Origin: Myxococcota bacterium
GTDB taxonomy: Bacteria; Myxococcota_C; UBA6777
Assembly (NCBI GenBank): GCA_963169055.1
Contig: CAUJFU010000412.1
Span: 1-54,102, forward strand
Length of the DNA stretch: 54,102 nucleotides
Direction of reading: 5' to 3'
How positions within the stretch are numbered: position 1 is the first letter of the stretch; every line of letters begins with the position of its first letter. The translations under genes and the position numbers were made by a program. The notes under the pieces were generated by a model that did not search any database, was not told where the DNA came from, and saw nothing but the letters and a program-made list of their open reading frames with translations. This document shows positions 8,187-32,227 of the stretch, in pieces.

Positions 8187-10922
8187 ATGTTAAAAAAGAC
8201 CTTGGTGTTTTGTGGCTTATTTTTGTGGTGTGGGATCTTTGGTGTGGTCGTATCCAACGAGCCAACAGCCTTCGCCAAACCAAAGCAGCCTCGTAGCTCA
8301 CGCCTCTATTCGTTGCGTCTGACCTTTTCCGTGCCGCAACACCCGCCTTATACGGATGGCCCGAAGGCTACACGCTTTCGGCTCCTTGCACAAAAGCCCG
8401 AACCACCGCGTATGTCTCCTCCGCCCCGCGATATCCCTGCATCAAAACCCGCTGCATCGAAACCCGCAAAGACCGATCCACTCGATGATATCGAAGAACC
8501 ACCCTCCCCCGCTCCAGCACGTCTCACGCCGTCCTCGCAGACCACCACACCGCCCTCTTCGGCTCCTGCGCCGACATCGCGCCCGCTACCAAGCAACGCG
8601 CAACCCCCCGCAACACGGGAAGAAGCGCCTCTGATCACCACCATCCACATCATCGGGCTACAGCGCGTCACCCGCACAGAAGTCAACCGCTACCTGTTTT
8701 CCCAAGAAGGCGATTTTTTTTCACGCGAAAAGCTCGACAAAGACACCGCACGTTTGCAAAAAAGCGGCCTCTTTGAAACCGTGCGCACCTCTTTTCAGAT
8801 CAAGCAAGGGCTCGCAGAGATCACCTTCACCCTCAAAGAACGCGAACTGATCTTGATTCGAGAGATCGCTTTTGTCGGAAACCGCATCCTCCAAGCCCCC
8901 GATCTTCAAAAGCCACTCGAATTAAAGGTGGGGGGCTACTTTGAGAACGCTGCCCTCAAACGCGATGCGCACCGCATCCTCAAAGCCTACAGCCAAATCG
9001 GTTATTTTCGGGCGCGATTGTATGTACAAGGCTACTGGGGGACACAAGCAGGACGACGCACCGTCAAACTGGAATATGTCATCCACGAAGATCTTCCCGC
9101 TCGGATCCGACGGGTGGAGATCCTTGGCAATCAGATCACCAAAACAGCGGATATCTTGGCTGCGTTGGCCTCCAAACCTGCCGATTTTTTGACCAACTTT
9201 ACGGGGCAAGGGATCTACCATCCCTATTATGTGGCCCAAGATCGCTATGTTCTGGACAATTTCTTTATGGATCGGGGATTTTTGGAGCGCGATATCAAAG
9301 GGCCGTATCTGTTTGTTTCACGAGATCGACGGCAAGTGGATCTGCGCTACCACATCAAAGAAGGCCCGATCTATCGGTATAATGCGATCGCATTGCGCGG
9401 CGAATTGTTGGGTGGAGAAGCCGCCATTCGGAAGATCTTGACGATCCACCTCGGCAAGATCTTTGATCGCAGCGAACTGCTCGACAAAACCGTGGCGAGT
9501 CTACGGCGGCATTACCAAGACGCCGGATACGCCTTCGCAAAGATCGAGCCGATCCCCTTGGTCGATCAACAGCGCAAGGCATTGGGGATCGTCTTTCGGT
9601 TTCAAAAAGGGCCTCTGGTGCGCATCGCAAACATCGAGATCGTCGGGAATACAGAAACCCAAGATCATGTGATCCGCCGGCGTTTGTCGCTGAAAGAAGG
9701 CGACCTGTACAGCGACACGCGGTTGCGACAAAGCCAACGCCGAATCTTTGCACTCGGCTACTTCGAGAAAAACGACGACACCTACGGCGTGCAAGTCCAA
9801 GTGGAAAAAACTTTGGACCCCGATCAAGTCAACCTGCGATTTGTGGTCAGAGAACGATGGACATGGACGATCCTTCCGAGCTTTACGTATCTTCCGGGTT
9901 ATGACGCGATCTTTTTGGGGCGTGTGGGAAAAGAGAATTTTCTTGGTTTGGGGCAATCTCTGTCCTTGACGGGCGTTGCGGCTACATCGGGGCGCTTGTT
10001 TTCGCTTTCGCTGATGTTTTTCGATCCGTCTCTTGCGAATAGCCCGCTGAGTTTGTCTTTTTCTGGTTACTTTTCGTACAACGCGATCCCAAATCTCGGC
10101 TACGCGATCGAGCGGTTGGGCGGGACGCTGGGCTTGGGGATCGCTCTTGGAACGCCCGCGCTTCGCTTCCATTTATCCTACAGTATCGGTCGTTATGGGT
10201 TGAGTCCACAAGAAAACTTTGGTTTGCAGATCCAAGGATTTTCGGCGGGGAGTTGGTCGCGCAGTGGTGTGGGTGGGCAGCTAATCTACGACGATCAAGG
10301 GTTGCGGCCCCATGCGTTTTTGCAGATGCGCCACAGCGTCTCCTTCTTTCATATCGCGCCCTATCTTGGGGCCAATTACAGCCTCAACCAACTGGATATC
10401 CAGCTACGTTTTTTTCTGCACTTTCACAAGCGTGTGACGCTGAAGCTGGCGGGAACCCTTGGGTGGATGTTTAGCTTCGATCCGTTAGGCCCCCCGTCCT
10501 TTGAGCGCTATCGGCTTGGTGGAGATCGAGATATGCGAGGCTATCCGATCCAATCCTTGGCTCCTGTGCGCGTTGTGCCTTCGCGTGCGGAGGCGACGTT
10601 CACGCCCGTCAGGGTCAACTGGGGCGGATCGAAGACAGTCATGGGAAATGCGGAGTTGGAGATCGTTTTGGCCCGTCGGGCGGGCGTTTCGATGGTGCTG
10701 TTTTACGATGCAGGCAACACCTACGATGATCGAGAAGCCTTTTTCCAAGATACCCGCAACAACGGGCTTCCGCTTGGGCTGTTTATGGACGTTGGCTTTG
10801 GCATACGTTGGCGGATCTTGGGGGCTGGGTTGTTTCGGTTTGAATTTGGTTTCCCCCTCAACCCTCGCCCGGGCGATCCACCTGTGCAGTTCTGGGTGAC
10901 GATCGGTGAATCTGTGTTTTAA
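8187..10922 (+). CDS. Omp85/BamA-family outer-membrane assembly protein
   Basis: 911 residues. A signal peptide (about 1-30) is followed by a Pro/Ala/Ser-rich periplasmic linker (about 70-150). Five POTRA-like domains span about 150-575, recognisable by repeated 'I..I.I.GN....' strands (VEILGNQITKT, IEIVGNTETQD). A C-terminal beta-barrel covers about 575-911 with the loop-6 motif as RLGGDRDMRGY and a terminal Phe. Five POTRAs match BamA, which inserts barrel proteins in the outer membrane. However, the usual partners (skp, lpxD, rseP) are not adjacent, and the Pro-rich extension is atypical, so it may be a second, specialised Omp85. It follows the sigma54 activator by 6 nt with only a weak RBS, suggesting translational coupling. 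It converges on the nuclease gene with only 3 nt between the stops. Confidence 0.9.
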   Translation: MLKKTLVFCGLFLWCGIFGVVVSNEPTAFAKPKQPRSSRLYSLRLTFSVPQHPPYTDGPKATRFRLLAQKPEPPRMSPPPRDIPASKPAASKPAKTDPLDDIEEPPSPAPARLTPSSQTTTPPSSAPAPTSRPLPSNAQPPATREEAPLITTIHIIGLQRVTRTEVNRYLFSQEGDFFSREKLDKDTARLQKSGLFETVRTSFQIKQGLAEITFTLKERELILIREIAFVGNRILQAPDLQKPLELKVGGYFENAALKRDAHRILKAYSQIGYFRARLYVQGYWGTQAGRRTVKLEYVIHEDLPARIRRVEILGNQITKTADILAALASKPADFLTNFTGQGIYHPYYVAQDRYVLDNFFMDRGFLERDIKGPYLFVSRDRRQVDLRYHIKEGPIYRYNAIALRGELLGGEAAIRKILTIHLGKIFDRSELLDKTVASLRRHYQDAGYAFAKIEPIPLVDQQRKALGIVFRFQKGPLVRIANIEIVGNTETQDHVIRRRLSLKEGDLYSDTRLRQSQRRIFALGYFEKNDDTYGVQVQVEKTLDPDQVNLRFVVRERWTWTILPSFTYLPGYDAIFLGRVGKENFLGLGQSLSLTGVAATSGRLFSLSLMFFDPSLANSPLSLSFSGYFSYNAIPNLGYAIERLGGTLGLGIALGTPALRFHLSYSIGRYGLSPQENFGLQIQGFSAGSWSRSGVGGQLIYDDQGLRPHAFLQMRHSVSFFHIAPYLGANYSLNQLDIQLRFFLHFHKRVTLKLAGTLGWMFSFDPLGPPSFERYRLGGDRDMRGYPIQSLAPVRVVPSRAEATFTPVRVNWGGSKTVMGNAELEIVLARRAGVSMVLFYDAGNTYDDREAFFQDTRNNGLPLGLFMDVGFGIRWRILGAGLFRFEFGFPLNPRPGDPPVQFWVTIGESVF

Positions 10923-19479: not shown

Positions 19480-22098
19480 GTGGAGATCTCGTCAAAAATG
19501 CCGATCGAACGCTTCGGATGGCGCGCAAGTATCGGAGTGGGCGCTTTTTCTTGTGGCGTCTTGCTTTACGAACTGTGTTTAACGCGTGTACTTTCGGTGG
19601 TGTTCTATTATCACACCGCCTTCCTTGCCCTATCCTTGGCGATGTTGGGGTTGGGAGCGGGTGCGGTGTGGGTGTATTTGCGCGATGCAGCGCAATCGAT
19701 CGAATCGACAACAGGAGCGAGACCAGAATCTCCGACGAAGGATCTGTTTTCTGTGCGGGCTTGGTTGTTGGGAGCGGCATGGGGGATGGCGTTGATGCCG
19801 ATCCTTTTAGGTTGGCTGCGTTTTTCGACAGATCTGTTGGAGTCTCCATTTCAGCCACAATTTTTGCTGATCTTTTCGATGGTTGCACTGGCTGCACTGA
19901 TCCCATTTGTGTGCTGTGGAGTCGTCTTGTCGCGGTGGTTCGTGGTGTATCGAAGGGATGTGCCGCGTTTGTACGGTTGGGATCTTGCGGGGGCTGCGCT
20001 TGGGGCGTTGCTTTTGGTGCCTTGGATGGGCTGGCTGGGTGGCCCGACGGGATTGTTGGGTTGCGCGGCTTTAATGGTGGCAGTTCATTGGTGGATGTTT
20101 GCCGAACAAGAAGGCTTGTTATGGCGATGGGTTGCCACCTCGGGAATCGGCGGCTTGCTGGTTTTTCAAGGACTCTTCGCGATCTGGACGATCCAAATCG
20201 ACTTTAGCCCCGACGCCAAAGAGCGCAGAATACTTTACAAGAAATGGAATGCCTTCTCCCGTGTGGTGTTGCTCCCGCCTCAATCTTGGGATCGAGCAAT
20301 CTCCGATCAACAGCGAGATGCTTGGCAAGGCCGCCTTCCCGAACAACGAGAGGCGTTGATCGATATTAACGCTTACGCGCCGTATCTGGCGTTTGATGGT
20401 GATCTGCGGAAGGTTCGTTATCTCGGAGAATTGGTATCGAACGCGGCCTATCACCTTTTACCACAAGGCCAGCGCGTTGTCGTACTCGGCCCGGGGGGAG
20501 GCAAAGATATCTTGGGGGCCTTGTTGTTTGCACCCAAGAAAGTGACCGGGATCGAGCTGAATCCGATCTTGATCCACGACATCCTCAAACATCGTCTACG
20601 CAAGTTTTCAGGAAACTTGATCGAACATCCAAAAGTCCGATGGATCGTGGGAGAAGGGCGTTCTGAGCTAGAACGTCTTCACGAGACGTTTGACGTGATC
20701 GTTGCAAACTCTGTCGTGACGTGGGCTGCCCATAGTTCGGGGGGAATGAACCTCGCAGAACACAGTTTGTACACCCGCGAAGCCTGCGGGCTGTACATGG
20801 ATCGATTGAGTGATCAGGGCATCTTGTCTGTTTCGTTGTGGGATCTCGGCCATCATGCGCTGATCTTGCGATGGATTCGAACTTGCGAACAAGCCGCCAA
20901 ACAACGCGGCATCGCTTCGCTTGCCGATCACACGATCGTATTGAGCAACGCATGGTCCCCCAAAGCCATGTTCTCAACGGTGCTGATCAGCAAATCTCCA
21001 TTTTCACCCGAACAGCGGCTCGCAGCCAAAAGTTTCGCAGAGCAGTACGGCTTTGTGGCCTCTTATCTTCCGCCCGAAGCCCCCGAACCCACCGAGCCTT
21101 GCCCTCCCCCAACAAGCACTTCTCAGCCCACAAGCAAGCTCGCCACAACCGTTGCATCCGACACAAAGACCGCTCCTCCCCGACGGATGGAAGGCAACGA
21201 AAAAGAAGAACAAGAAGCGTATCAACGAAAGCGCACGGAGCGCCAAGCCAGCGAACGCAAGCTACAAGCCCTGTACGAACGATACTTTCGCGATAGCGAT
21301 GCGATGGTTCATACCTTTCCCGGGGCGATCAACGCAGCGACCGATGATCGCCCCTTCTTTTTGTACACGGCTCGCCTTCGAGATCTATTTGGTGGGGATT
21401 CAAGCCGATGGCTCGGAGAAAATGCAGCCATCGTCAGCCTAGGGATCAGTTTACTGGTCGTCAGCTTGTTGTTGATGGTGATGATCTTTGGGCCGCTGTG
21501 GTGGAGTTCTCGCCACGCCATCCACACGCTGCCTTGGGGGGCCTTGGCGTTTTTTCTATGCCTCGGTTTGGGCTTTATGTTTCTCGAAGTTCCGATTTTA
21601 CAACGGCTCTCACTTTTTCTCGGACACCCAACCTACGCGCTTACGGTGGGATTGTCTTCGTTGCTGCTTTGGAGTGGACTTGGCAGCCTATGGATCGGGC
21701 GATGGAAAGAACCGACTGATCTTTTGCGTTGGATGCAGATCTTTTGGGGGGCGTTGCTGCTGATCTTGGTCATCGTGGGGATCGGATTAGATCCTCTGTT
21801 GCAAACGGCGATGGGATGGCCGCTTTGGGGCCGAATCACGTTGGCCTTTGCGCTCTTGGGAGTATGTGGTTTTGGCATGGGAATGCCTTTGCCTGCGGGG
21901 ATGTCTTTGTTGGCAGCGCGGATGCCTCACGCCGTCCCGTGGGCGTGGGGATTGAACGGTGCAGCGGGCGTTGTGGCATCCGTCAGCATCTTGTGGGTCG
22001 CCGCAGAATGGGGCTTTTCCATCGCGTTTGTGATGGCTTGGTTCTGCTACCTTTTCGCAGCCTATCTGTTTTGGCGGATGGTGCGCACACTTCCCTAA
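19480..22098 (+). CDS. Polytopic membrane protein with embedded spermidine-synthase-like (SAM-binding) domain
   Basis: 872 residues. The N-terminal half has about seven hydrophobic helices (first about residues 10-30, further ones to about 235). The central soluble part (about 310-480) has a Rossmann fold of the spermidine/spermine synthase type: VVVLGPGGGKDILGALLF as the SAM loop, GIELNP as the acidic strand end, then EGRSELERLHETFDVIVAN. A low-complexity Pro/Thr/Lys linker follows (about 530-590), then about six more helices to the end. Such fused membrane 'spermidine synthase' proteins are frequent in Myxococcota; the true substrate is unknown and polyamine synthesis should not be assumed. 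GTG start with AAGAGAGGA 6 nt upstream. The stop codon lies inside a 35-nt tandem duplication. The graspetide precursor starts 254 nt downstream. Confidence 0.8.
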   Translation: MEISSKMPIERFGWRASIGVGAFSCGVLLYELCLTRVLSVVFYYHTAFLALSLAMLGLGAGAVWVYLRDAAQSIESTTGARPESPTKDLFSVRAWLLGAAWGMALMPILLGWLRFSTDLLESPFQPQFLLIFSMVALAALIPFVCCGVVLSRWFVVYRRDVPRLYGWDLAGAALGALLLVPWMGWLGGPTGLLGCAALMVAVHWWMFAEQEGLLWRWVATSGIGGLLVFQGLFAIWTIQIDFSPDAKERRILYKKWNAFSRVVLLPPQSWDRAISDQQRDAWQGRLPEQREALIDINAYAPYLAFDGDLRKVRYLGELVSNAAYHLLPQGQRVVVLGPGGGKDILGALLFAPKKVTGIELNPILIHDILKHRLRKFSGNLIEHPKVRWIVGEGRSELERLHETFDVIVANSVVTWAAHSSGGMNLAEHSLYTREACGLYMDRLSDQGILSVSLWDLGHHALILRWIRTCEQAAKQRGIASLADHTIVLSNAWSPKAMFSTVLISKSPFSPEQRLAAKSFAEQYGFVASYLPPEAPEPTEPCPPPTSTSQPTSKLATTVASDTKTAPPRRMEGNEKEEQEAYQRKRTERQASERKLQALYERYFRDSDAMVHTFPGAINAATDDRPFFLYTARLRDLFGGDSSRWLGENAAIVSLGISLLVVSLLLMVMIFGPLWWSSRHAIHTLPWGALAFFLCLGLGFMFLEVPILQRLSLFLGHPTYALTVGLSSLLLWSGLGSLWIGRWKEPTDLLRWMQIFWGALLLILVIVGIGLDPLLQTAMGWPLWGRITLAFALLGVCGFGMGMPLPAGMSLLAARMPHAVPWAWGLNGAAGVVASVSILWVAAEWGFSIAFVMAWFCYLFAAYLFWRMVRTLP

Positions 22099-22157
22099 AC
22101 GCCAAAAAGCCTCCTCCTACCGCACTTCCCTAAACGCCCAATCGCCTCCTTCTACCG
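22088..22157. repeat. 35-nt tandem duplication across the stop codon
   Basis: Copies at 22088-22122 and 22123-22157 begin CACTTCCCTAAACGCC and differ at about four positions. The first copy holds the last codons and TAA (22096-22098) of the spermidine-synthase-like gene; the second is an untranslated echo. The rest of the gap to 22352 shows no gene. Confidence 0.85.
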
Positions 22158-22352
22158 CACAGATCGCGGCCAAAGCCTTGGCGAAAAAACATGGATAAAG
22201 CATCGCTCTTGCGCGTCAACCTGTCTCGAAAGCAACCTTTGGGCAAGTCCGCCCGATAACTGTGAACGATATCACACCAGATCGCCCACATCGCGCAAAT
22301 GCCGATGAACACGACGCAGATGTGGCCCTTCTACCTTGATGGAGAACGAACG

Positions 22353-23513
22353 ATGAAGATCGAACGCAAGCCACCCCAACCCCCGCAACCTACTCCCAGT
22401 AAAACCCCCGCAGCCAAGCCACCCACCGCCCAACCCGCCGAACAAAAAAGCGCGTTCCAAAGCAACGACCATCGCGCACAACAACGCGACAACCTGCTTG
22501 GAACCCAAAAACAACCGACCCAACAACCTTTCTTCGAGCGTTTTCTTGAAGATCAAAATCGCCTCCCCAAACCCGGTGGCGAGATGACCACCATGCGTTA
22601 TCCTTCCGATAACGAAAGCGGTGAAGCTCAGCCCGGAAAACCCGGTGGTGGAGAGATGACCACCATGCGTTATCCTTCTGACAACGAAGGTGCAGAAACT
22701 CCCGTGAAACCCGGCGGAAACGAAGTCACCACCAAACGCTATCCTTCTGATTCGGAAGGCATGGAAACTCCCGTGAAACCCGGCGGAAACGAAGTCACCA
22801 CCAAACGCTACCCTTCTGATTCGGAAGGCATGGAAACCCCTGTCAAACCCGGCGGTGGTGAGATGACCACCATGCGTTATCCCTCCGACAACGAAGGCAG
22901 CGAAGTTCAGCCCGGAAACCCCGGTGGTGGCGGCATGACCACCATGCGTTATCCCTCTGACAACGAAGGCAGCGAAGTTCAGCCCGGAAACCCCGGTGGT
23001 GGCGGTATGACCACTATGCGTTATCCTTCCGACAACGAAGGTGCAGAAACACCAATCCAATCGGGTGGACCGGGACGTGAAGCCGTGACGATGGCCTATC
23101 CCTCCGATGCAGAAGGCTCAGAAACTCCCATTAAGCCCGGTGGACCGGGACGCGAAGCCGTGACAATGGCCTACCCCTCCGATGCAGAAGGCTCAGAAAC
23201 TCCCATCAAGCCGGGTGGGCCGGGACGCGAAGCCGTGACGATGGCCTACCCCTCCGATGCAGAAGGTGCAGAAACTCCCGTGAAGCCGGGTGGTGGCGAG
23301 ATGACCACCATGCGTTATCCTTCCGACAACGAAGGCAACGAAGTTCAGCCCGGAAACCCCGGTGGTGGCGAGATGACCACCATGCGTTATCCTTCCGATA
23401 ACGAAGGTAGCGAAACGACGGAAAACACGGGTGCTACGGGCGGTGCGAAGCAGAAAAAAGCTCTTCCAGCGTGGGAGCTGTTGGCGCAGCTCGCAAGCAA
23501 AGATAAATCGTGA
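22353..23513 (+). CDS. Multicore graspetide precursor (microviridin/marinostatin type, 12 cores)
   Basis: 386 residues. The leader (1-74) is Pro/Gln-rich and ends with PFFERFLE (59-66), the conserved helix by which microviridin leaders activate their ATP-grasp ligase. Twelve cores follow, each with YPSD; core residues [TV]T[MK][RA]YPSDxE start at 79, 103, 126, 149, 172, 196, 220, 245, 270, 295, 318 and 342. Seven read TTMRYPSDNE, two TTKRYPSDSE and three VTMAYPSDAE. Linkers of 13-16 residues are rich in Gly, Pro and Glu (PVKPGGGE type). A C-terminal tail (about 352-386) ends in a short amphipathic helix, LPAWELLAQLA. Thr and Ser with Asp and Glu in each core match the two omega-ester sites of marinostatin and microviridin. 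The microviridin amide Lys is replaced by Arg or Ala, and its Glu partner by Gly or Ser. The ATG at 22353 has GGAG 8 nt upstream; the frame is open from 22299 without an RBS. No signal peptide. Confidence 0.93.
   Translation: MKIERKPPQPPQPTPSKTPAAKPPTAQPAEQKSAFQSNDHRAQQRDNLLGTQKQPTQQPFFERFLEDQNRLPKPGGEMTTMRYPSDNESGEAQPGKPGGGEMTTMRYPSDNEGAETPVKPGGNEVTTKRYPSDSEGMETPVKPGGNEVTTKRYPSDSEGMETPVKPGGGEMTTMRYPSDNEGSEVQPGNPGGGGMTTMRYPSDNEGSEVQPGNPGGGGMTTMRYPSDNEGAETPIQSGGPGREAVTMAYPSDAEGSETPIKPGGPGREAVTMAYPSDAEGSETPIKPGGPGREAVTMAYPSDAEGAETPVKPGGGEMTTMRYPSDNEGNEVQPGNPGGGEMTTMRYPSDNEGSETTENTGATGGAKQKKALPAWELLAQLASKDKS
22575..23405 (+). repeat. Twelve tandem coding repeats (69-75 nt) of the graspetide core
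   Basis: In-frame repeats spaced 23-25 codons. Copies 3 and 4, 5 and 6, and 8 to 10 are almost identical in DNA, differing mainly at third positions. Types run M M K K M M M A A A M M (residues before Tyr: MR, KR or MA). This block pattern points to recent unequal exchange. It is coding and not a CRISPR array: no non-repetitive spacers are present. Confidence 0.92.
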
Positions 23514-23560
23514 TCCATCGGGGATGATCGGAGTGGATCGAAGTTGGAGGGGAGAACGCT

Positions 23561-24559
23561 TTGTCGAAACCGCAAGTTCTTTTGATCACCCACACAAAAG
23601 ACAACCAAAGTATCCCGATGGTCGAAGAAGCGATCCGACGGCGCGGAGGGGAGGCGATCCGTCTTGATACGGATCGCTATCCGTTAGACGTGAAGATCAA
23701 CACCCGTTACGAAAATAGCGGTTGGGCGCAACGGCTGAAAACACCGAACGGAGACATCGATTTAACCGAGTTGACGGCGGTGTGGTATCGGCGTTTCTAT
23801 GCAGGTCACGGTCTGCCCGAAACACTCGGAGATTTGTACGATCCTTCGATTCAAGAGTCACGACGGACGTTATGGGGGAGCATTGCCTCTTTGTCGTGCT
23901 TCCAACTCGATCCGCTGTCAAGCGTGCGCCGCGCCGATCACAAAGAAGTCCAAACCCGAAAAGCCATCGAATTGGGGCTGGATATCCCTCGAACCTTATT
24001 CACCAACGATCCTGACGAAGCACGCGCATTTATCGAATCCATCGATGGACCCGTGATCACCAAGATGCAACATCCGTTTGCCGTATACCGCCAAGGTATC
24101 GAGAATGTGGTGTTTACAACACGCATCCGTCCCGATGATCTAAGCGCTTTAGAAGGATTGCGTTTTTGCCCGATGATCTTCCAAGAAGAGATCGTCAAGA
24201 CGTTGGATGTGCGCGTCACGATCGTGGGCAAACAGATCTTTTCTGCGGCGGTCGATGCACAAACCAAAGCAGAAACGCAAGTGGACTGGCGGCGCGATGG
24301 CGTCGGGCTGATCCGCTCTTGGAAACCGTACACCTTGCCCGAAGATATCCCCCCCAAGCTCCTTGCGCTGCAAAATTTTTTGGGGCTGAATTATGGAGCC
24401 ATCGACTTTGTTGTTTCTCCTGAGGGTCGCCACGCCTTCCTTGAGGTGAACGCAGTGGGTGAGTTCTTTTGGCTTGTTGACACCCCCGGCCTTCCTATCC
24501 CTGACGCGCTCGCCGACACGCTCTTAGGCCGCGTCGAGCGTATCCCCGCCGTTGTTTAA
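23561..24559 (+). CDS. ATP-grasp graspetide ligase (MdnC/MvdD-like omega-ester ligase)
   Basis: 332 residues, the usual length for microviridin-type ATP-grasp peptide ligases. The N-terminal pre-ATP-grasp part (about 1-110, VLLITHTKDNQ then AVWYRR) is followed by the ATP-grasp fold. This has KMQHPFAVYRQGIENVVFTT as the ATP-binding lysine strand (about 165-190), the family hallmark LDVRVTIVGKQIFSAAVDAQ (about 210-229) followed by VDWRR, and the metal-binding FLEVNAVGEFFWL near the end (about 293-305). It should phosphorylate Asp and Glu side chains of the precursor and join them to Thr and Ser hydroxyls. Start is TTG, supported by GGAGGGGAG 6 nt upstream, 47 nt after the precursor stop and surely co-transcribed. 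Only one ligase is present, so the second (amide) ligase of classical microviridin loci is absent, as are an acetyltransferase and an ABC exporter. Confidence 0.93.
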   Translation: MSKPQVLLITHTKDNQSIPMVEEAIRRRGGEAIRLDTDRYPLDVKINTRYENSGWAQRLKTPNGDIDLTELTAVWYRRFYAGHGLPETLGDLYDPSIQESRRTLWGSIASLSCFQLDPLSSVRRADHKEVQTRKAIELGLDIPRTLFTNDPDEARAFIESIDGPVITKMQHPFAVYRQGIENVVFTTRIRPDDLSALEGLRFCPMIFQEEIVKTLDVRVTIVGKQIFSAAVDAQTKAETQVDWRRDGVGLIRSWKPYTLPEDIPPKLLALQNFLGLNYGAIDFVVSPEGRHAFLEVNAVGEFFWLVDTPGLPIPDALADTLLGRVERIPAVV

Positions 24560-26660: not shown

Positions 26661-27050
26661 GAGCAAAGATCAGTCGTTGCGGGACTGAGCAAGGATTCAT
26701 TGTTTTTGAAAGAGAGGGCGGAGCAGATCGAGCTAGACGGATGGGGAGAGAAGAGAAGAAGGGAAGGGAGGATAGAGCAAGCGAAGCAAAAAGCAGTCTT
26801 GACTTTCTACGGGAGTCTTGGTAAGAGCGCTTGCGTTTACGGGCTTGGATGTTTTTTGCAAAAGAGACGGATCGCGCAAGCGCATCGGTTTCGGGGTGCG
26901 GAGCATCAAGGGAAGCCGAAAGAGTCCATGAAGAAAAGCGAATGTTCGACGGGCGAAAGATCGCCTGCCTTTTGGAAGCTCTGAAACCACGATCCGTTGG
27001 GGTGGATGGGCCAGAGCGATAGACAACACCAGCGATTGAGGAGAGTGCAG
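26661..27050 (+). promoter_or_regulatory. Leader region of the ATP-citrate lyase genes
   Basis: No supported gene. A possible promoter is TTGACT (26799-26804), 17 nt, TAAGAG (26822-26827), pointing toward the lyase genes; its -10 matches only three of six bases. That would give a leader of about 215 nt in which I see no recognisable riboswitch. Confidence 0.3.
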
Positions 27051-28331
27051 ATGGCACGCAAAGGTATTCGTGAATACGACGCCAAGCGGATGTTGGCCAC
27101 AGCCCTGACCGGTTACGATGGTCGGGTTGCCTTGGTGGGTCCCGGTGAAGATCTCAGAAAGAAAACGGAAGAGTACCCTTGGTTGAAGACCGAGAAGCTG
27201 GTGGCGAAACCGGATCAACTTTTCGGAAAGCGCGGAAAGAACGGTCTGATCTGTTTGAACAAAGGTCTCGAAGAAACGGCAGCTTGGATCAACGAGCGCA
27301 TGGACAAAGAAGTGACACTATTGAGCGGCGTGAAGGGCGTGTTGACGCACTTTATCGTGGAAGTGTTCACTCCGTTTGATGCGGATACACGCGAATATTA
27401 CTTGTCTCTCGATTTGGACGTGAACGGTGATATCCTTCGCTTGTCCAATTCGGGCGGTATCGATGTGGAAGAGTACATGGGCGACGAGAACAAATTCGTC
27501 GAAGTGATGCTCAACGGTGACAAAGCCTTCGATCCCCAAGATGTCGATGCAGCGGTGAAAAAGCTGTTCCCTGCAAATCACCACGCTTCTGTCCATCGCT
27601 TTATCAAAGAAACATACAGCCACTTTGTGGCGGGTGGCTACACGCTGTTGGAGATCAACCCCTTTGTGGTGTTGGGCGATGGTCGTGCGCAACCGCTCGA
27701 TATGGTCGCGAAAGTGGACGATACTGCGGCGTTTGAGACCCGCAAAATGTGGGGCGACAATCTGGAGTTTCCTGCTGCGTTCGGTGAACACCTGACGCCC
27801 GCCGAAGAATTCGTGCGCGAGTTAGACTCCAAAACAGGCGCATCGTTGAAATTGCGTATCCTGAACCCGAAAGGCCGTGTGTGGAACATGGTTGCGGGTG
27901 GTGGTGCGTCGGTGATCTATGCCGACACCGTGTGCGACTTGGGCTTTGCCAACGAGCTTGCGATGTATGGCGAATACTCGGGCAACCCCGACACCAACAA
28001 CACCTACCTGTACGCGAAGACCGTTCTCGAACAGATGACCGCTGAGAAAGATCCCCAAGGGCGGCCCAAGTTCCTGCTTTTGGGCGGTGGTATCGCGAAC
28101 TTTACGGACGTGGCCAAGACGTTTACGGGCATCATCATGGCGATGCAAGAGTTGGCAGAAAAGATGAAAGAGGTTGATGTGCGCGTGTTTGTGCGTCGTG
28201 CAGGTCCCAACTACAAAGAAGGTCTCATCAAATTGAAGGCCGCCGGCCAACGTTTAGGGATTCCCATCGAAGTGCATGGCCCTGAAACACACATGACCCA
28301 GATCGTGGCTGATGCGCTGTTGCGCAAATAA
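27051..28331 (+). CDS. aclB: ATP-citrate lyase, beta-type (citrate/CoA-ligase, ATP-grasp) subunit
   Basis: 426 residues, matching the N-terminal half of animal ATP-citrate lyase rather than succinyl-CoA synthetase beta. Diagnostic stretches are KPDQLFGKRGKNGL, YTLLEINPFVV, AKVDDTAAFETRKMWGD, GASLKLRILNPKGRVWNMV followed by AGGGASVIYADTVCDLG, and FVRRAGPNYKEGL. With its partner it makes acetyl-CoA and oxaloacetate from citrate, CoA and ATP in the cytoplasm. The ATG at 27051 has GAGGAGAG 5 nt upstream; the frame is open 54 nt further without RBS. It is followed 62 nt later by the alpha subunit, with one shared terminator. The two-gene form is the one known from reductive TCA-cycle bacteria and from some fungi and plants. 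Confidence 0.93.
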   Translation: MARKGIREYDAKRMLATALTGYDGRVALVGPGEDLRKKTEEYPWLKTEKLVAKPDQLFGKRGKNGLICLNKGLEETAAWINERMDKEVTLLSGVKGVLTHFIVEVFTPFDADTREYYLSLDLDVNGDILRLSNSGGIDVEEYMGDENKFVEVMLNGDKAFDPQDVDAAVKKLFPANHHASVHRFIKETYSHFVAGGYTLLEINPFVVLGDGRAQPLDMVAKVDDTAAFETRKMWGDNLEFPAAFGEHLTPAEEFVRELDSKTGASLKLRILNPKGRVWNMVAGGGASVIYADTVCDLGFANELAMYGEYSGNPDTNNTYLYAKTVLEQMTAEKDPQGRPKFLLLGGGIANFTDVAKTFTGIIMAMQELAEKMKEVDVRVFVRRAGPNYKEGLIKLKAAGQRLGIPIEVHGPETHMTQIVADALLRK

Positions 28332-28393
28332 CGGCTGCGCTGCTTTGTAACGACACAGCGAATCGCAAATCGCGCACATAAGGGAGAAAACAG

Positions 28394-30238
28394 ATGAGCC
28401 GACCCAGTTACCAGCTCTTCGATAAAAATACCACCGCGCTGATCTACGGGATGCAGACCGCAGCAGTGCAACGCATGCTTGACTTTGACTTTGCTTGCCG
28501 CCGCGCCAAGCCCTCCGTTTCCGCGTTGATCAACCCGGGTAGCGAAGGCTATGAGAAGATCTTTTGGGGCACCAAAGAGATCCTTCTGCCCGTGTTTCCT
28601 GATATCGCCTCGGCTGCCAAAGCCTGCCCCGAATCGGATGTGTTGATCAACTTCGCCTCGTACCGTTCGGCCTATCCGACGACGCTCGAAGCGATGGCGA
28701 TCCCCCAACTCCGTACGCTCGTGATCATCGCCGAAGGCGTTCCCGAGCGCCGCGCCCGTCATCTTCGCGGCCTTGCCCGTGAGAAGGGCGTCAACATCAT
28801 CGGTCCTGCGACCGTTGGTGGGATCAAAGCAGGTGTGTTCCGCATCGCCAACACGGGCGGAACCATCGAAAATATCGTCAGCTCGAAGCTGCATCGCCCG
28901 GGTTCTGTGGGCTTTGTGTCCAAATCAGGCGGGATGTCCAACGAGTCTTACAACGTGATCGCCCAATGCACCGACGGCGTCAACGAAGGGATCGCGATCG
29001 GCGGCGATGCGTTCCCCTGTTCGACTTTGCTTGATCACCTGCTGCGTTTCCAAGACAACCCCGATATCAAGATGATGGTGTGCCTCGGTGAAGTCGGCGG
29101 CGAAGAAGAATACCGTATCGCCGAAGCCATCGCGAGCGGACGCATCACCAAACCCGTTGTGGCATGGGTCACGGGAACCTCGCTCGAACACCTGCCCCAA
29201 GGCGTGCAGTTCGGACACGCCGGCGCAAAAGCCGATGTCAAGCGCGAAACCGCACCCGCGAAAAACGAGGCCCTGCGCAAAGCAGGTGCGATCGTTCCCG
29301 AGTCTTTCAACGACTACGGCAAAGCGATCAAAGAAACCTTTGACAAACTCGTTGCCGAAGGCAAACACACACCGATCGCGGACGTGGAACCACAAAACGT
29401 CCCGATGGACTTTAAAAGCGCTGTGGCGCTCAATATGGTTCGCCGCCCCACCAACTTCATCTGCACGATTACCGATGATGCGGGCGATGAGCTAAACTAC
29501 GCAGGCCACAAGATCAGCAAGGTGATCAGCGAAAACTACAGCATCGGCGATGTCTTGTCGTTGTTGTGGTTCCGTCAACGCCTTCCCAAGTGGGCCACCG
29601 ACTTCTTGGAGATGGTGATCAAGTTGACCGCCGACCACGGCCCCGCAGTGTCGGGCGCACACAACGCGATCGTTACCGCCCGCGCAGGACGCGATCTGAT
29701 GAGCGCCGTGGCTTCGGGTATTTTGACCATCGGTCCGCGTTTTGGGGGTGCCGTTGCGGGCGCTGCTGTGATGTTCAAAGATGCGTACGACCGCAAGCTC
29801 AATGCAGTCCAATTCATCGACGAAAAGAAAAAGCAGAACGTCAACGTGCAAGGGATCGGCCACCGCATCAAATCGCTGCGTAACCCGGATATGCGCGTTG
29901 TCTTGCTCAAAAAATACGCAGACGAACATTTCCCCCAACATCCCCTGCTCGACTTTGCTCTCGAAGTCGAACAGGTGACCACGCAGAAAAAAGACACCTT
30001 GATCCTCAACGTGGACGGTGCCATCGGCGTTTTGTGCGTGGATATGATGTACGCATGCGGCTTCTCTGAGAGCCGAGTGCAAGACGTTGTGGACGCAGGC
30101 GCACTCAACGGTCTGTTCTTGCTTGGCCGCACCATCGGCATGGTCGGTCACTTTATGGATCAGCATCGCCTCAAAGCACCGCTCTATCGCCATCCTTGGG
30201 ACGATATCCTCTACGACTTGCCCGCAGACGCAGAATAA
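28394..30238 (+). CDS. aclA: ATP-citrate lyase, alpha-type subunit (CoA-binding and citrate-synthase-like domains)
   Basis: 614 residues, matching the C-terminal half of animal ATP-citrate lyase. The N-terminal CoA-binding/CoA-ligase part has AEGVPERRARHLRGLAR, GPATVGGIKAG, FVSKSGGMSNE and the phosphorylated catalytic His in QFGHAGAKAD (His275). The C-terminal citrate-synthase-like domain (about 360-600) has ADHGPAVSGAHN, GIGHRIKSLRNPD and LNVDGAIGVL, supplying the citryl-CoA lyase step. Start ATG with GGGAG 7 nt upstream. It ends 20 nt before a 12-bp GC-rich terminator. All landmark motifs are intact, so an active enzyme is expected. Confidence 0.95.
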   Translation: MSRPSYQLFDKNTTALIYGMQTAAVQRMLDFDFACRRAKPSVSALINPGSEGYEKIFWGTKEILLPVFPDIASAAKACPESDVLINFASYRSAYPTTLEAMAIPQLRTLVIIAEGVPERRARHLRGLAREKGVNIIGPATVGGIKAGVFRIANTGGTIENIVSSKLHRPGSVGFVSKSGGMSNESYNVIAQCTDGVNEGIAIGGDAFPCSTLLDHLLRFQDNPDIKMMVCLGEVGGEEEYRIAEAIASGRITKPVVAWVTGTSLEHLPQGVQFGHAGAKADVKRETAPAKNEALRKAGAIVPESFNDYGKAIKETFDKLVAEGKHTPIADVEPQNVPMDFKSAVALNMVRRPTNFICTITDDAGDELNYAGHKISKVISENYSIGDVLSLLWFRQRLPKWATDFLEMVIKLTADHGPAVSGAHNAIVTARAGRDLMSAVASGILTIGPRFGGAVAGAAVMFKDAYDRKLNAVQFIDEKKKQNVNVQGIGHRIKSLRNPDMRVVLLKKYADEHFPQHPLLDFALEVEQVTTQKKDTLILNVDGAIGVLCVDMMYACGFSESRVQDVVDAGALNGLFLLGRTIGMVGHFMDQHRLKAPLYRHPWDDILYDLPADAE

Positions 30239-30257
30239 TCGGCGTTTTCCTTTCTTG

Positions 30258-30293
30258 CAGCGCGCTCCGTTCGGGGCGCGCTGTTCTGTTTTT
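30258..30293 (+). terminator. Rho-independent terminator of the ATP-citrate lyase operon
   Basis: CAGCGCGCTCCG (30258-30269) pairs with CGGGGCGCGCTG (30272-30283), including one T-G pair, and is followed by TTCTGTTTTT (T run to 30293). It separates the lyase genes from the isocitrate-dehydrogenase-like gene. Confidence 0.92.
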
Positions 30294-30487
30294 CCCCCAC
30301 AACATCGCTGCTCTTCGCGCCCTTCGGATGCACACCACGATGATCTTTTGCGAAAAGAGCGATCTTCAAAAAAATCAACAAGCCACTGCATAGAAAAACA
30401 TTCTATCCAACACACGATAGCGACCGTCGCATCAAGTCAATGAGCCTCGATCAGAGACGACGGTCTGACAGTACAGAGGAGACGAGT

Positions 30488-32227
30488 ATGTCCCAAATCG
30501 ATGTCTTGTATTTTCCCGGTGATGATCGCGCAGAAGATGCCAGCGAAGTCGCCAAAGACGTTGCCAACGCTGCGCTTGCACGTGCCAACGAGATCGTGGG
30601 TTCAAGCCACAAATTCAACTGGATCTCTGAGAACGAAGATCCCCGCCTGACGGTCGGTTTGCGCTTGTGGTTGCGATTGAAAAACCAATTTGACCTGCCC
30701 GTTCTCAACGAAAACAACGCACGCGATAAAGAAGTCCTCAACTTCCTCTTGAAGTCCGATCTCACGGAGATCCAAGCCAAGTACCCCAAGATCCAAGCCT
30801 CTGATCTCGCCTTCATCCGTGACGCAGCGCAATCGTTGTTGGACATGAACGTGCTGGTGCCTTCGGACGGCGTGCTCGAAGCGTTGAATCGCGTGGGCTA
30901 CTCTTACAAAGGCGCGACTGGTACGCTCTCTGGCAAAGGCACCCCCGCAAGCATCAACGTGTTTATTCGCCAAAAACTCGAATCTGACGCCTGTGTCCGC
31001 GACTTCAAAAACGTGGCTCCTCGCAAACACAAATCCGTCGATGTCGATATGGCCGTATTTGTGGGCTGTGAAGGCGTGACCTCTGAGTCCGAACACCTCG
31101 TCGGAACGGGCTACACCGACGCCAAGATCATCACCAAAAAATCGGCAGCGGTGATCCAAAAAGCCTTCGAATACGCCAAAGCCAAAGGGATCGACAAAGT
31201 CTATGTTGCGGAAAAAGGCAACATCTTGAAAGAGTCGGACAACGCCTTCATCGATCTGGCAAAAGCCGCAGAAGCCGAAACAGGCGTCAAGATGGAATAC
31301 ATCATCTTCGACAACTTCTTGCAACGTATCACCAAAAACCCCGATTGGTTCAAGGTGGTCGTCACTTCTCGTTTCAATGGTGAAGAATTCTTGGTTCCCC
31401 TTGCGGTCGCCATGTTCGACGAAGTCGAACGCGAAGATCTCGGAAAAGACGTGGGCGTCTTCTCCCGCTATGTCGGCAAAAACATCGACTACACCAAAAC
31501 CAAGATCGACACCCGCTGCTATCGCCAAAACAACGAGTGTTTCTACATCGGCGAAGACAAACGCACCGAAACCGAATCCATCAACTTCCGCCGCATCACC
31601 CGCAAGATGTCCGAAAATATCATCCGCTACTCGCTCGACGATACGCTCGTGCGTGGCGCAAAGCGCTTGTTTATCCTCTATTCACCGTACCTTGCAGGCG
31701 ACAAGCTCTTCCTCCAAGTGGGCCGAGAGATCGCCCGCGAAGAAAAGTACAAGTCCATCGATGTGGTGTTTATGACCATCGGCGACTACTGCTGGTATAC
31801 CGTCCATCGCCCCGAATCGGTCGAAGGCGTGGTGGGAACCAACTTGACCATGGACTTTTTGACCGACGCAGAAGCCTCGAAGATCGGCGGCATCGGGATG
31901 ATGCCCAGCTTCAATTACACCCTTGAGACGGGCATCATGGTGTCCGAACCCGGACACGGAACCGCCCCCGACCTCCAACCGAACCAGATCAATCCCGGTG
32001 CTTCGATCTGGGCGATGGCTGCGTTGCTTGAGCGTATGAGCGACGACCTCAGCGGTCGGATCACTCCCGACCAAAAGAAAACACTCGCCAAAGCCGCTGA
32101 GCTCGTCTACAAAGCCACCACCCAATTCTACTCCGCAGGCCAAAACTTGACGGGTGATCTTGGCGGAACCGGCACCACTACGGGCGTTGGCGAAGGCATC
32201 AAAGCCATCCTCCACACCCTCCAATAA
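30488..32227 (+). CDS. Isocitrate/isopropylmalate dehydrogenase-like protein with internally duplicated fold
   Basis: 579 residues, no signal peptide. The C-terminal third carries dehydrogenase landmarks: NLTMDFLTDAEASKIGGIGM (metal-binding Asp pair, normally GDxxSD), MMPSFNY, EPGHGTAPDL and NPGASIWAMAALLE. A second, diverged copy of the same strand-helix order lies upstream: KSAAVIQKAFEYAKAKGIDK, EKGNILKESDNAF, YIIFDNFLQRITKNPDWF and VVVTSRFNGEE, mirrored later by MSENIIRYSL..., YLAGDKLFLQVGREIA and VHRPESVEGVVGTN. The protein thus looks like two fused half-sites, reminiscent of monomeric isocitrate dehydrogenases. Position just after ATP-citrate lyase supports citrate/isocitrate metabolism, but substrate and cofactor are not proven. 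ATG at 30488 has AGAGGAG 6 nt upstream; the lyase terminator means a separate promoter in 30294-30487. Confidence 0.75.
   Translation: MSQIDVLYFPGDDRAEDASEVAKDVANAALARANEIVGSSHKFNWISENEDPRLTVGLRLWLRLKNQFDLPVLNENNARDKEVLNFLLKSDLTEIQAKYPKIQASDLAFIRDAAQSLLDMNVLVPSDGVLEALNRVGYSYKGATGTLSGKGTPASINVFIRQKLESDACVRDFKNVAPRKHKSVDVDMAVFVGCEGVTSESEHLVGTGYTDAKIITKKSAAVIQKAFEYAKAKGIDKVYVAEKGNILKESDNAFIDLAKAAEAETGVKMEYIIFDNFLQRITKNPDWFKVVVTSRFNGEEFLVPLAVAMFDEVEREDLGKDVGVFSRYVGKNIDYTKTKIDTRCYRQNNECFYIGEDKRTETESINFRRITRKMSENIIRYSLDDTLVRGAKRLFILYSPYLAGDKLFLQVGREIAREEKYKSIDVVFMTIGDYCWYTVHRPESVEGVVGTNLTMDFLTDAEASKIGGIGMMPSFNYTLETGIMVSEPGHGTAPDLQPNQINPGASIWAMAALLERMSDDLSGRITPDQKKTLAKAAELVYKATTQFYSAGQNLTGDLGGTGTTTGVGEGIKAILHTLQ

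Follow-up and report, generated by a model that had tools for sequence, protein, structure and literature searches.

The window described here, a stretch of 54,102 nucleotides from a Myxococcota bacterium (contig CAUJFU010000412.1 of assembly GCA_963169055.1, positions 1 to 54,102 of the forward strand), carries on its + strand a two-gene graspetide locus, composed of a precursor gene (22353..23513) with twelve tandem cores and the gene for a single ATP-grasp ester ligase of the MvdD/MdnC type (23561..24559). We consider it likely, at a probability of about 0.7, that the product is a twelve-core chain that this one ligase would close by ester bonds into bicyclic, protease-inhibiting heads. The gene content, the core number, the conservation and the family membership of both proteins are established here, and from there we infer the ester formation, topology, targets and product form. 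Both proteins come from known families, AMdnC and MdnC serve as models for the predicted mechanism, and the locus is best classed as encoding a long, putatively bicyclic, marinostatin-type multi-core precursor of an already known type.

The precursor comprises 386 residues, and its start is placed at the ATG at 22353 rather than at 22299, because a GGAG site (22341–22344) precedes the former. Its leader contains the recognition motif PFFERFLE (residues 59–66; 22527..22550, + strand), which conforms to the helix motif PFFxxFL, and is followed by an array of twelve TxxYPSDxE cores (22590..23405, + strand), spaced by 23–25 residues with linkers of 14–16 residues, and by a 35-residue C-terminal tail that ends in ALPAWELLAQLASKDKS (23406..23510, + strand). 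Leader motif and cores had been listed in a preliminary description of this DNA, and all twelve units indeed match T...PSD.[DE], with Tyr preceding Pro in every one. The pattern has no match in the window's other five frames or in the six frames outside the gene, and when the precursor residues were shuffled 10,000 times, core matches averaged 0.0019 and never exceeded one; the tandem organization of the array is visible at the DNA level too. Only three distinct nonamers occur, TMRYPSDNE seven times, TKRYPSDSE twice (cores 3 and 4, 22731..22826, + strand) and TMAYPSDAE three times (cores 8–10, in units with a PGREAV linker, 23088..23264, + strand); the core of marinostatin is TMRYPSDSD. Scores of 139.2 bits with the curated profile NF033738 (cut-off 26) and 115.8 bits with PF12559 (Inhibitor_I10; cut-off 21) bear out the earlier assignment, and on these profile matches we class the precursor as a graspetide of the microviridin/marinostatin type.

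The ligase gene, 47 bp behind the precursor gene, opens with a TTG codon, with GGAGGGGAG at 23546–23554, and encodes 332 residues. The best family of its product is MvdD (TIGR04184, 413.1 bits, versus 270 bits for MvdC), the pre-ATP-grasp domain of MvdD (PF21068) is recognized at 124 bits (cut-off 27), and the MdnC fold spans the full length of the protein, in keeping with the single MdnC/MvdD-type ligase noted before. Because the TIGR04184 score lies under the equivalog cut-off of 475, the enzyme is named MvdD-type and not an MvdD equivalog; the MvdD-type ligase of a gammaproteobacterial locus (Arenicellales, L009) scores 415.8 bits with the same profile.

The cores further point to a bicyclic design, which is an addition to the preliminary description. 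In microviridins, a Lys residue at core position 3 forms a lactam, made by MvdC. At this position the window has Arg in nine cores, Ala in three and Lys in none, and with the ligase as query no MvdC-type amide ligase was found in the window's own genome (estimated completeness 86%) or in a sister genome (93%) that contains the same locus (G001:C148). The query returned one further partial match per genome, at 28–30% identity; that in the own genome fits best TIGR04187, a maturase of ribosomally synthesized and post-translationally modified peptides (79 bits, cut-off 350), and reaches 38.5 bits with MvdC (cut-off 425). As the lactam position lacks Lys throughout and the search brought up no MvdC, the heads are predicted to be bicyclic and marinostatin-like, not tricyclic, and a microviridin-type lactam is not anticipated on them. 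Six loci with paired ligases from other lineages have Lys at position 3 in all counted cores (15/15 in L009, 4/4 in L018, two in L019 from two open reading frames, one in L020, and two each in L021 and L022), the second ligase being MvdC by annotation in L018 and by best profile, each under the cut-off of 425, in the other five; the contrast is numerically small, because L019 and L020 share one genus and the window and its sister represent one lineage. Across 35 dereplicated precursors, position 3 is Lys in 125 cores, Arg in 56 and Ala in 14.

In the sister locus the precursor has 13 cores, and the ligase is 98% identical in protein, with 58 silent and 6 replacement differences over 332 codons (nonsynonymous divergence, dN, 0.010; synonymous divergence, dS, 0.298; about 7% of bases). 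The aligned cores differ in 26 of 108 codons, every one silently, whereas the linkers have 37 silent and 9 replacement differences over 164 codons (p 0.022 for the contrast in replacements); the leader shows 12 and 3 over 79 codons, and the tail, conserved in the sister, 14 and 2 over 35. Ten units align in order, window units 3–12 with sister units 4–13, and the gain or loss of a unit falls among units 1–3. From the silent-only core differences and the kept unit order it is concluded that the core array predates the split of the two lineages and that purifying selection acts on its cores. A recent burst or full concerted evolution found no support: among the ten positional pairs, units 5, 6, 8 and 9 alone have paralogs in both genomes that lie nearer than the ortholog, with ties in the window for units 4 and 11. 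An assembly artefact, in which a repeat in a draft genome would have falsified the copy number, is brought to mind by the 523 contigs of the assembly, but is highly improbable and was rejected because of the sister array, in which another genome keeps ten units in the same order beside a ligase about 7% divergent in bases; moreover, point changes set most units apart from one another.

The census of core numbers covered 56 precursors, that is, the window and 55 relatives from two protein searches, with the sister and L009 standing outside it; scoring in each search was confined to the 7,994 candidates with the most words in common, and the proteins are mostly metagenomic. Strict core counts are 16 in P0134, 15 in P0004, 14 in P0135 and 12 in the window, then 9, 8, 8 and lower (the strict pattern gives P0011 zero, despite seven loose cores), with more than five cores in 16/56 precursors and more than twelve in 3/56. 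Class II microviridin precursors are described with up to five cores (PMC7823629, PMC13039773), and in the literature searched, with most subscription journals outside its reach, no precursor of the microviridin type exceeded this number. The earlier remark that twelve cores are unusual holds in so far as the number lies beyond the published range, but twelve is neither unique nor a record, as the sister has 13 and three further precursors have 14, 15 and 16. Arrays above the published range recur in at least two lineages, the window's and Arenicellales. The distinguishing trait of the window among long arrays is the uniformity of its cores, with 3 distinct nonamers among 12, compared with 14/16 in P0134, 14/15 in P0004 and 9/14 in P0135.

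Precursor matches were obtained in two of the five genomes of the phylum available to the search and in three of 386 "relatives", the own and sister genomes being counted among those three; in the class of G337, the MvdD profile matched in 65 of 395 genomes, once above the cut-off. Real cores were seen in five (L018–L022) of the 32 loci L017–L048 and none in 26, and the lone pattern match in L023, which lacks a leader and has Thr at position 3, was taken as chance. A phage origin was likewise rejected, since a single one of the 41 viral-contig matches to the pattern encodes a relative (32%), and the stretch covered shows no PSD core. The viral-listed contig of L017 (IMGVR_UViG_2899332677_000001) carries an ATP-grasp ligase 32% identical to that of the window, in 7 kb without PSD cores.

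In the predicted mechanism, the PFFERFLE leader is the likely binding site of the MvdD-type ligase, which would form two side-chain esters per core, Thr1–Asp7 and then Ser6–Glu9; full modification would place 24 esters on the twelve-core chain and yield a chain of bicyclic heads. AMdnC, the ligase of a class II microviridin of Anabaena PCC 7120, works distributively (PMC5934393), and the window ligase is predicted to proceed in the same way, core by core, as AMdnC does on a three-core substrate. In microviridin J, the residue following Thr occupies the S1 pocket of trypsin, and substitutions there alter the specificity (PMC7823629); P1 of marinostatin is Met (PMC9623506). By this residue-after-Thr rule, the predicted P1 series of the window is MMKKMMMMMMMM, with Met in ten heads, for which subtilisin-like proteases are the predicted targets, and Lys in two (cores 3 and 4), for which trypsin-like proteases are. 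Subtilisin-family (S8) proteases give six matches in four open reading frames of the own genome. Among the 27 precursors that have four or more cores after dereplication, the mean within-precursor entropy is 1.31 bits at P1, as against 0.43 and 0.75 bits at the next two positions (p 6e-5 and 1.7e-4), and at least two P1 chemistry classes are present in 18 of the 27.

A chain with a structural, metal-binding or signalling role in place of protease inhibition is improbable. Neither a target nor an exporter nor a protease could be linked to the locus, and both immediate neighbours are uninformative; however, the reactive-site loop of the core equals that of marinostatin, P1 varies across relatives, and the graspetides characterized by 2022 are all stated to be protease inhibitors (PMC8939145). 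The many-headed serine-protease inhibitor predicted at the outset would fit the family membership of precursor and ligase.

Several observations weigh against the preferred reading. The ligase scores under the equivalog cut-off, as mentioned; the Lys/MvdC contrast sets six loci, two of the same genus, against one lineage; entropy at P1 does not differ significantly from that at position 8 (1.13 bits, p 0.09), and 9 of the 27 precursors have a single P1 chemistry class. In a comparison of core flanks (55 precursors, 271 cores, P0011 and cores near an end being omitted), positions −2 and −1 vary more than P1 across precursors (3.13 and 2.84 versus 2.47 bits) and stand at 1.56 and 1.24 versus 1.33 bits within them. 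AMdnC, whose biochemistry on multi-core microviridin precursors is published, acts on one to four cores, and complete modification of twelve is an extrapolation. If only part of the cores were modified, the natural product would be a mixture whose chains carry partly open heads. Such an outcome, which we hold to be unlikely, would agree with the one to seven dehydrations, five being most abundant, obtained with AMdnC on a three-core precursor in vitro (PMC5934393), and with the distance of about 280 residues between the single leader and the farthest cores; on the other hand, replacement differences are absent from all aligned cores, the first and the last included, which is what one would expect if each head matters.

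Two further points of the same kind concern the form of the product: GG in all 11 linkers is equally compatible with cleavage, and no exporter at the locus, signal peptide or dedicated protease was recognized. Hydropathy revealed no signal peptide from either start, 22353 or 22299, the most hydrophobic 19-residue segment of the precursor averaging −0.07, with no hydrophobic stretch. The two genes flanking the locus gave no transporter and no informative match, and no transporter match was present in five open reading frames scanned at 10.9–19.1 kb of the window; a Mla-type lipid ATP-binding cassette (ABC) system (MlaD twice, ATPase and MlaE) at 34.2–38.4 kb, 10–14 kb downstream, looks unrelated to the locus. 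The own genome (86% complete) gave no match for a C39 peptidase, and the single match in the sister lies in an open reading frame of 356 residues, too short for a C39 exporter. In contrast, a Nostoc plasmid cluster contains a peptidase-domain ABC transporter together with precursor, MvdC, MvdD and HlyD. If the GG-containing linkers were cut after modification, some twelve small bicyclic peptides would be released, in three kinds, and the array would serve to raise the dose rather than to build a many-headed protein. This outcome is possible, though we do not favour it: GG stands in every linker and also ahead of core 1, the mere three core kinds among twelve would suit dosage, and class II and III microviridin precursors bear double-glycine motifs and are often accompanied by a C39-domain transporter (PMC13039773). 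The double-glycine motifs and tandem cores of class II are found in the window, and its frequent but optional C39 transporter is not; besides the C39 results, the Pro that follows every linker Lys (7/7) also speaks against cutting, although the three linker Arg are followed by Glu. Since the search for a C39 exporter was negative and trypsin-like enzymes would find few sites in the linkers, a product that stays a single chain is somewhat more likely than cut peptides.

The locus can be compared with several known systems, among which Chryseoviridin/CdnC (PDB 7mgv) presumably differs from it in core layout. Marinostatin (MEROPS I10) shares with the window the loop TMRYPSD, two expected esters and Met at P1, and its leader of the PFFARFL type (PMC7823629) resembles PFFERFLE; however, marinostatin is a single small inhibitor, whereas the window has twelve cores behind a 79-residue stretch, and a C-terminal tail. 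The AMdnA/AMdnC system is similar in having one leader, tandem cores and an MdnC-type ligase (PMC5934393), but AMdnA has three cores of the microviridin consensus with Lys at position 3, which the twelve window cores lack. Plesiocin (four bicyclic repeats) and thuringinin (three) are likewise multivalent, with ester-linked repeats and a single ligase (PMC13097080, PMC12291112, PMC8939145), and the potency of plesiocin is reported to climb with motif number (PMC13097080); they are described as having no sequence similarity to microviridin precursors (PMC8939145). Corallotide from Corallococcus (about 22 kDa, five modified areas) is also a large, repeat-bearing myxobacterial precursor, but belongs to a different graspetide group with a KxxxD motif and an oxygenase partner, and further groups with long, repeat-bearing precursors are described in the same source (PMC13097080, 2026). 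The Arenicellales locus L009 (JANQSD010000004.1) resembles the window in its 15 TxKxPSDx[DE] cores, PFFARFL leader and MvdD-type ligase (57% identical), and differs from it in the extra MvdC-type ligase, the Lys at position 3, the diverse cores and an additional N-terminal region.

Several other features of the relatives and of the surrounding DNA were observed. The leader pattern P[FY][FY]..[FLY]L is present in 25/56 precursors, window included, and missing in 31; six of them (P0006, P0012, P0136, P0142, P0152 and P0155) have instead a common N-terminal region of about 230 residues, and in these the ligase recognition may differ. A conserved region of about 80–90 residues (PxGxRF...DGF...LIPxG...DPN...RSGGxAG...GPF), absent from the window precursor, is fused to the cores, before them in P0001, P0002, P0005, P0010, P0137, P0138 and P0144 and after them in the same six; a Pfam scan of eight relatives gave only Inhibitor_I10 above its cut-off, and its modelled fold, of low overall confidence (60.5), had no PDB match at E ≤ 0.001. 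Plesiocin-type cores follow TTxxxxEE. In P0152 and P0154, four PSD cores are accompanied at the C terminus by 5 and 7 repeats [S/T]T-x-AVGEE, respectively, which resemble this motif, so that the two proteins may be hybrids combining two types of graspetide core in one chain. Another site in the own genome (L002, G000:C320) has a distant ATP-grasp gene (171–1112; TIGR04187 79 bits, under the cut-off) ahead of a 2-oxoglutarate–Fe(II) oxygenase gene (1013–2008; PF13640, 49 bits), the same family pair as in the corallotide cluster (PMC13097080), with an S8 protease match at 9358–10350 of the contig; it is a possible second graspetide-like locus. Upstream of the precursor, the end of the neighbouring gene contains a 35-bp direct repeat (22088–22160, 2.1 copies, 89% match), of which the sister's upstream stretch has one copy by eye. 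Scans for promoters and terminators gave 1 and 5 sites, no excess over shuffles (1.2 and 4.4). At 26997–32227, three genes match succinate–coenzyme A (CoA) ligase beta, succinate–CoA ligase alpha plus citryl-CoA lyase/citrate synthase, and isocitrate dehydrogenase, all under curated cut-offs; the set points to an ATP-citrate lyase of two subunits and, possibly, to a citric acid cycle run in reverse.

Genes of this length would be overlooked by a survey of precursor candidates limited to at most 150 residues (PMC8939145). Twelve to sixteen heads under one leader would provide a test case for a distributive ligase reaching distant cores, and avidity can strengthen multi-headed inhibitors. A natural array of this size would offer a gene-encoded scaffold whose heads can each have a P1 residue of their own; the 16-core relative has Lys, Met, Leu, Glu, Arg and Ala at P1, and the window Met and Lys. 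It is tentatively proposed that such precursors form inhibitors resembling strings of beads, in which one ligase would set at least 24 esters on an intact chain of 12–16 marinostatin/microviridin heads, with P1 varied along the chain and many proteases trapped at once.
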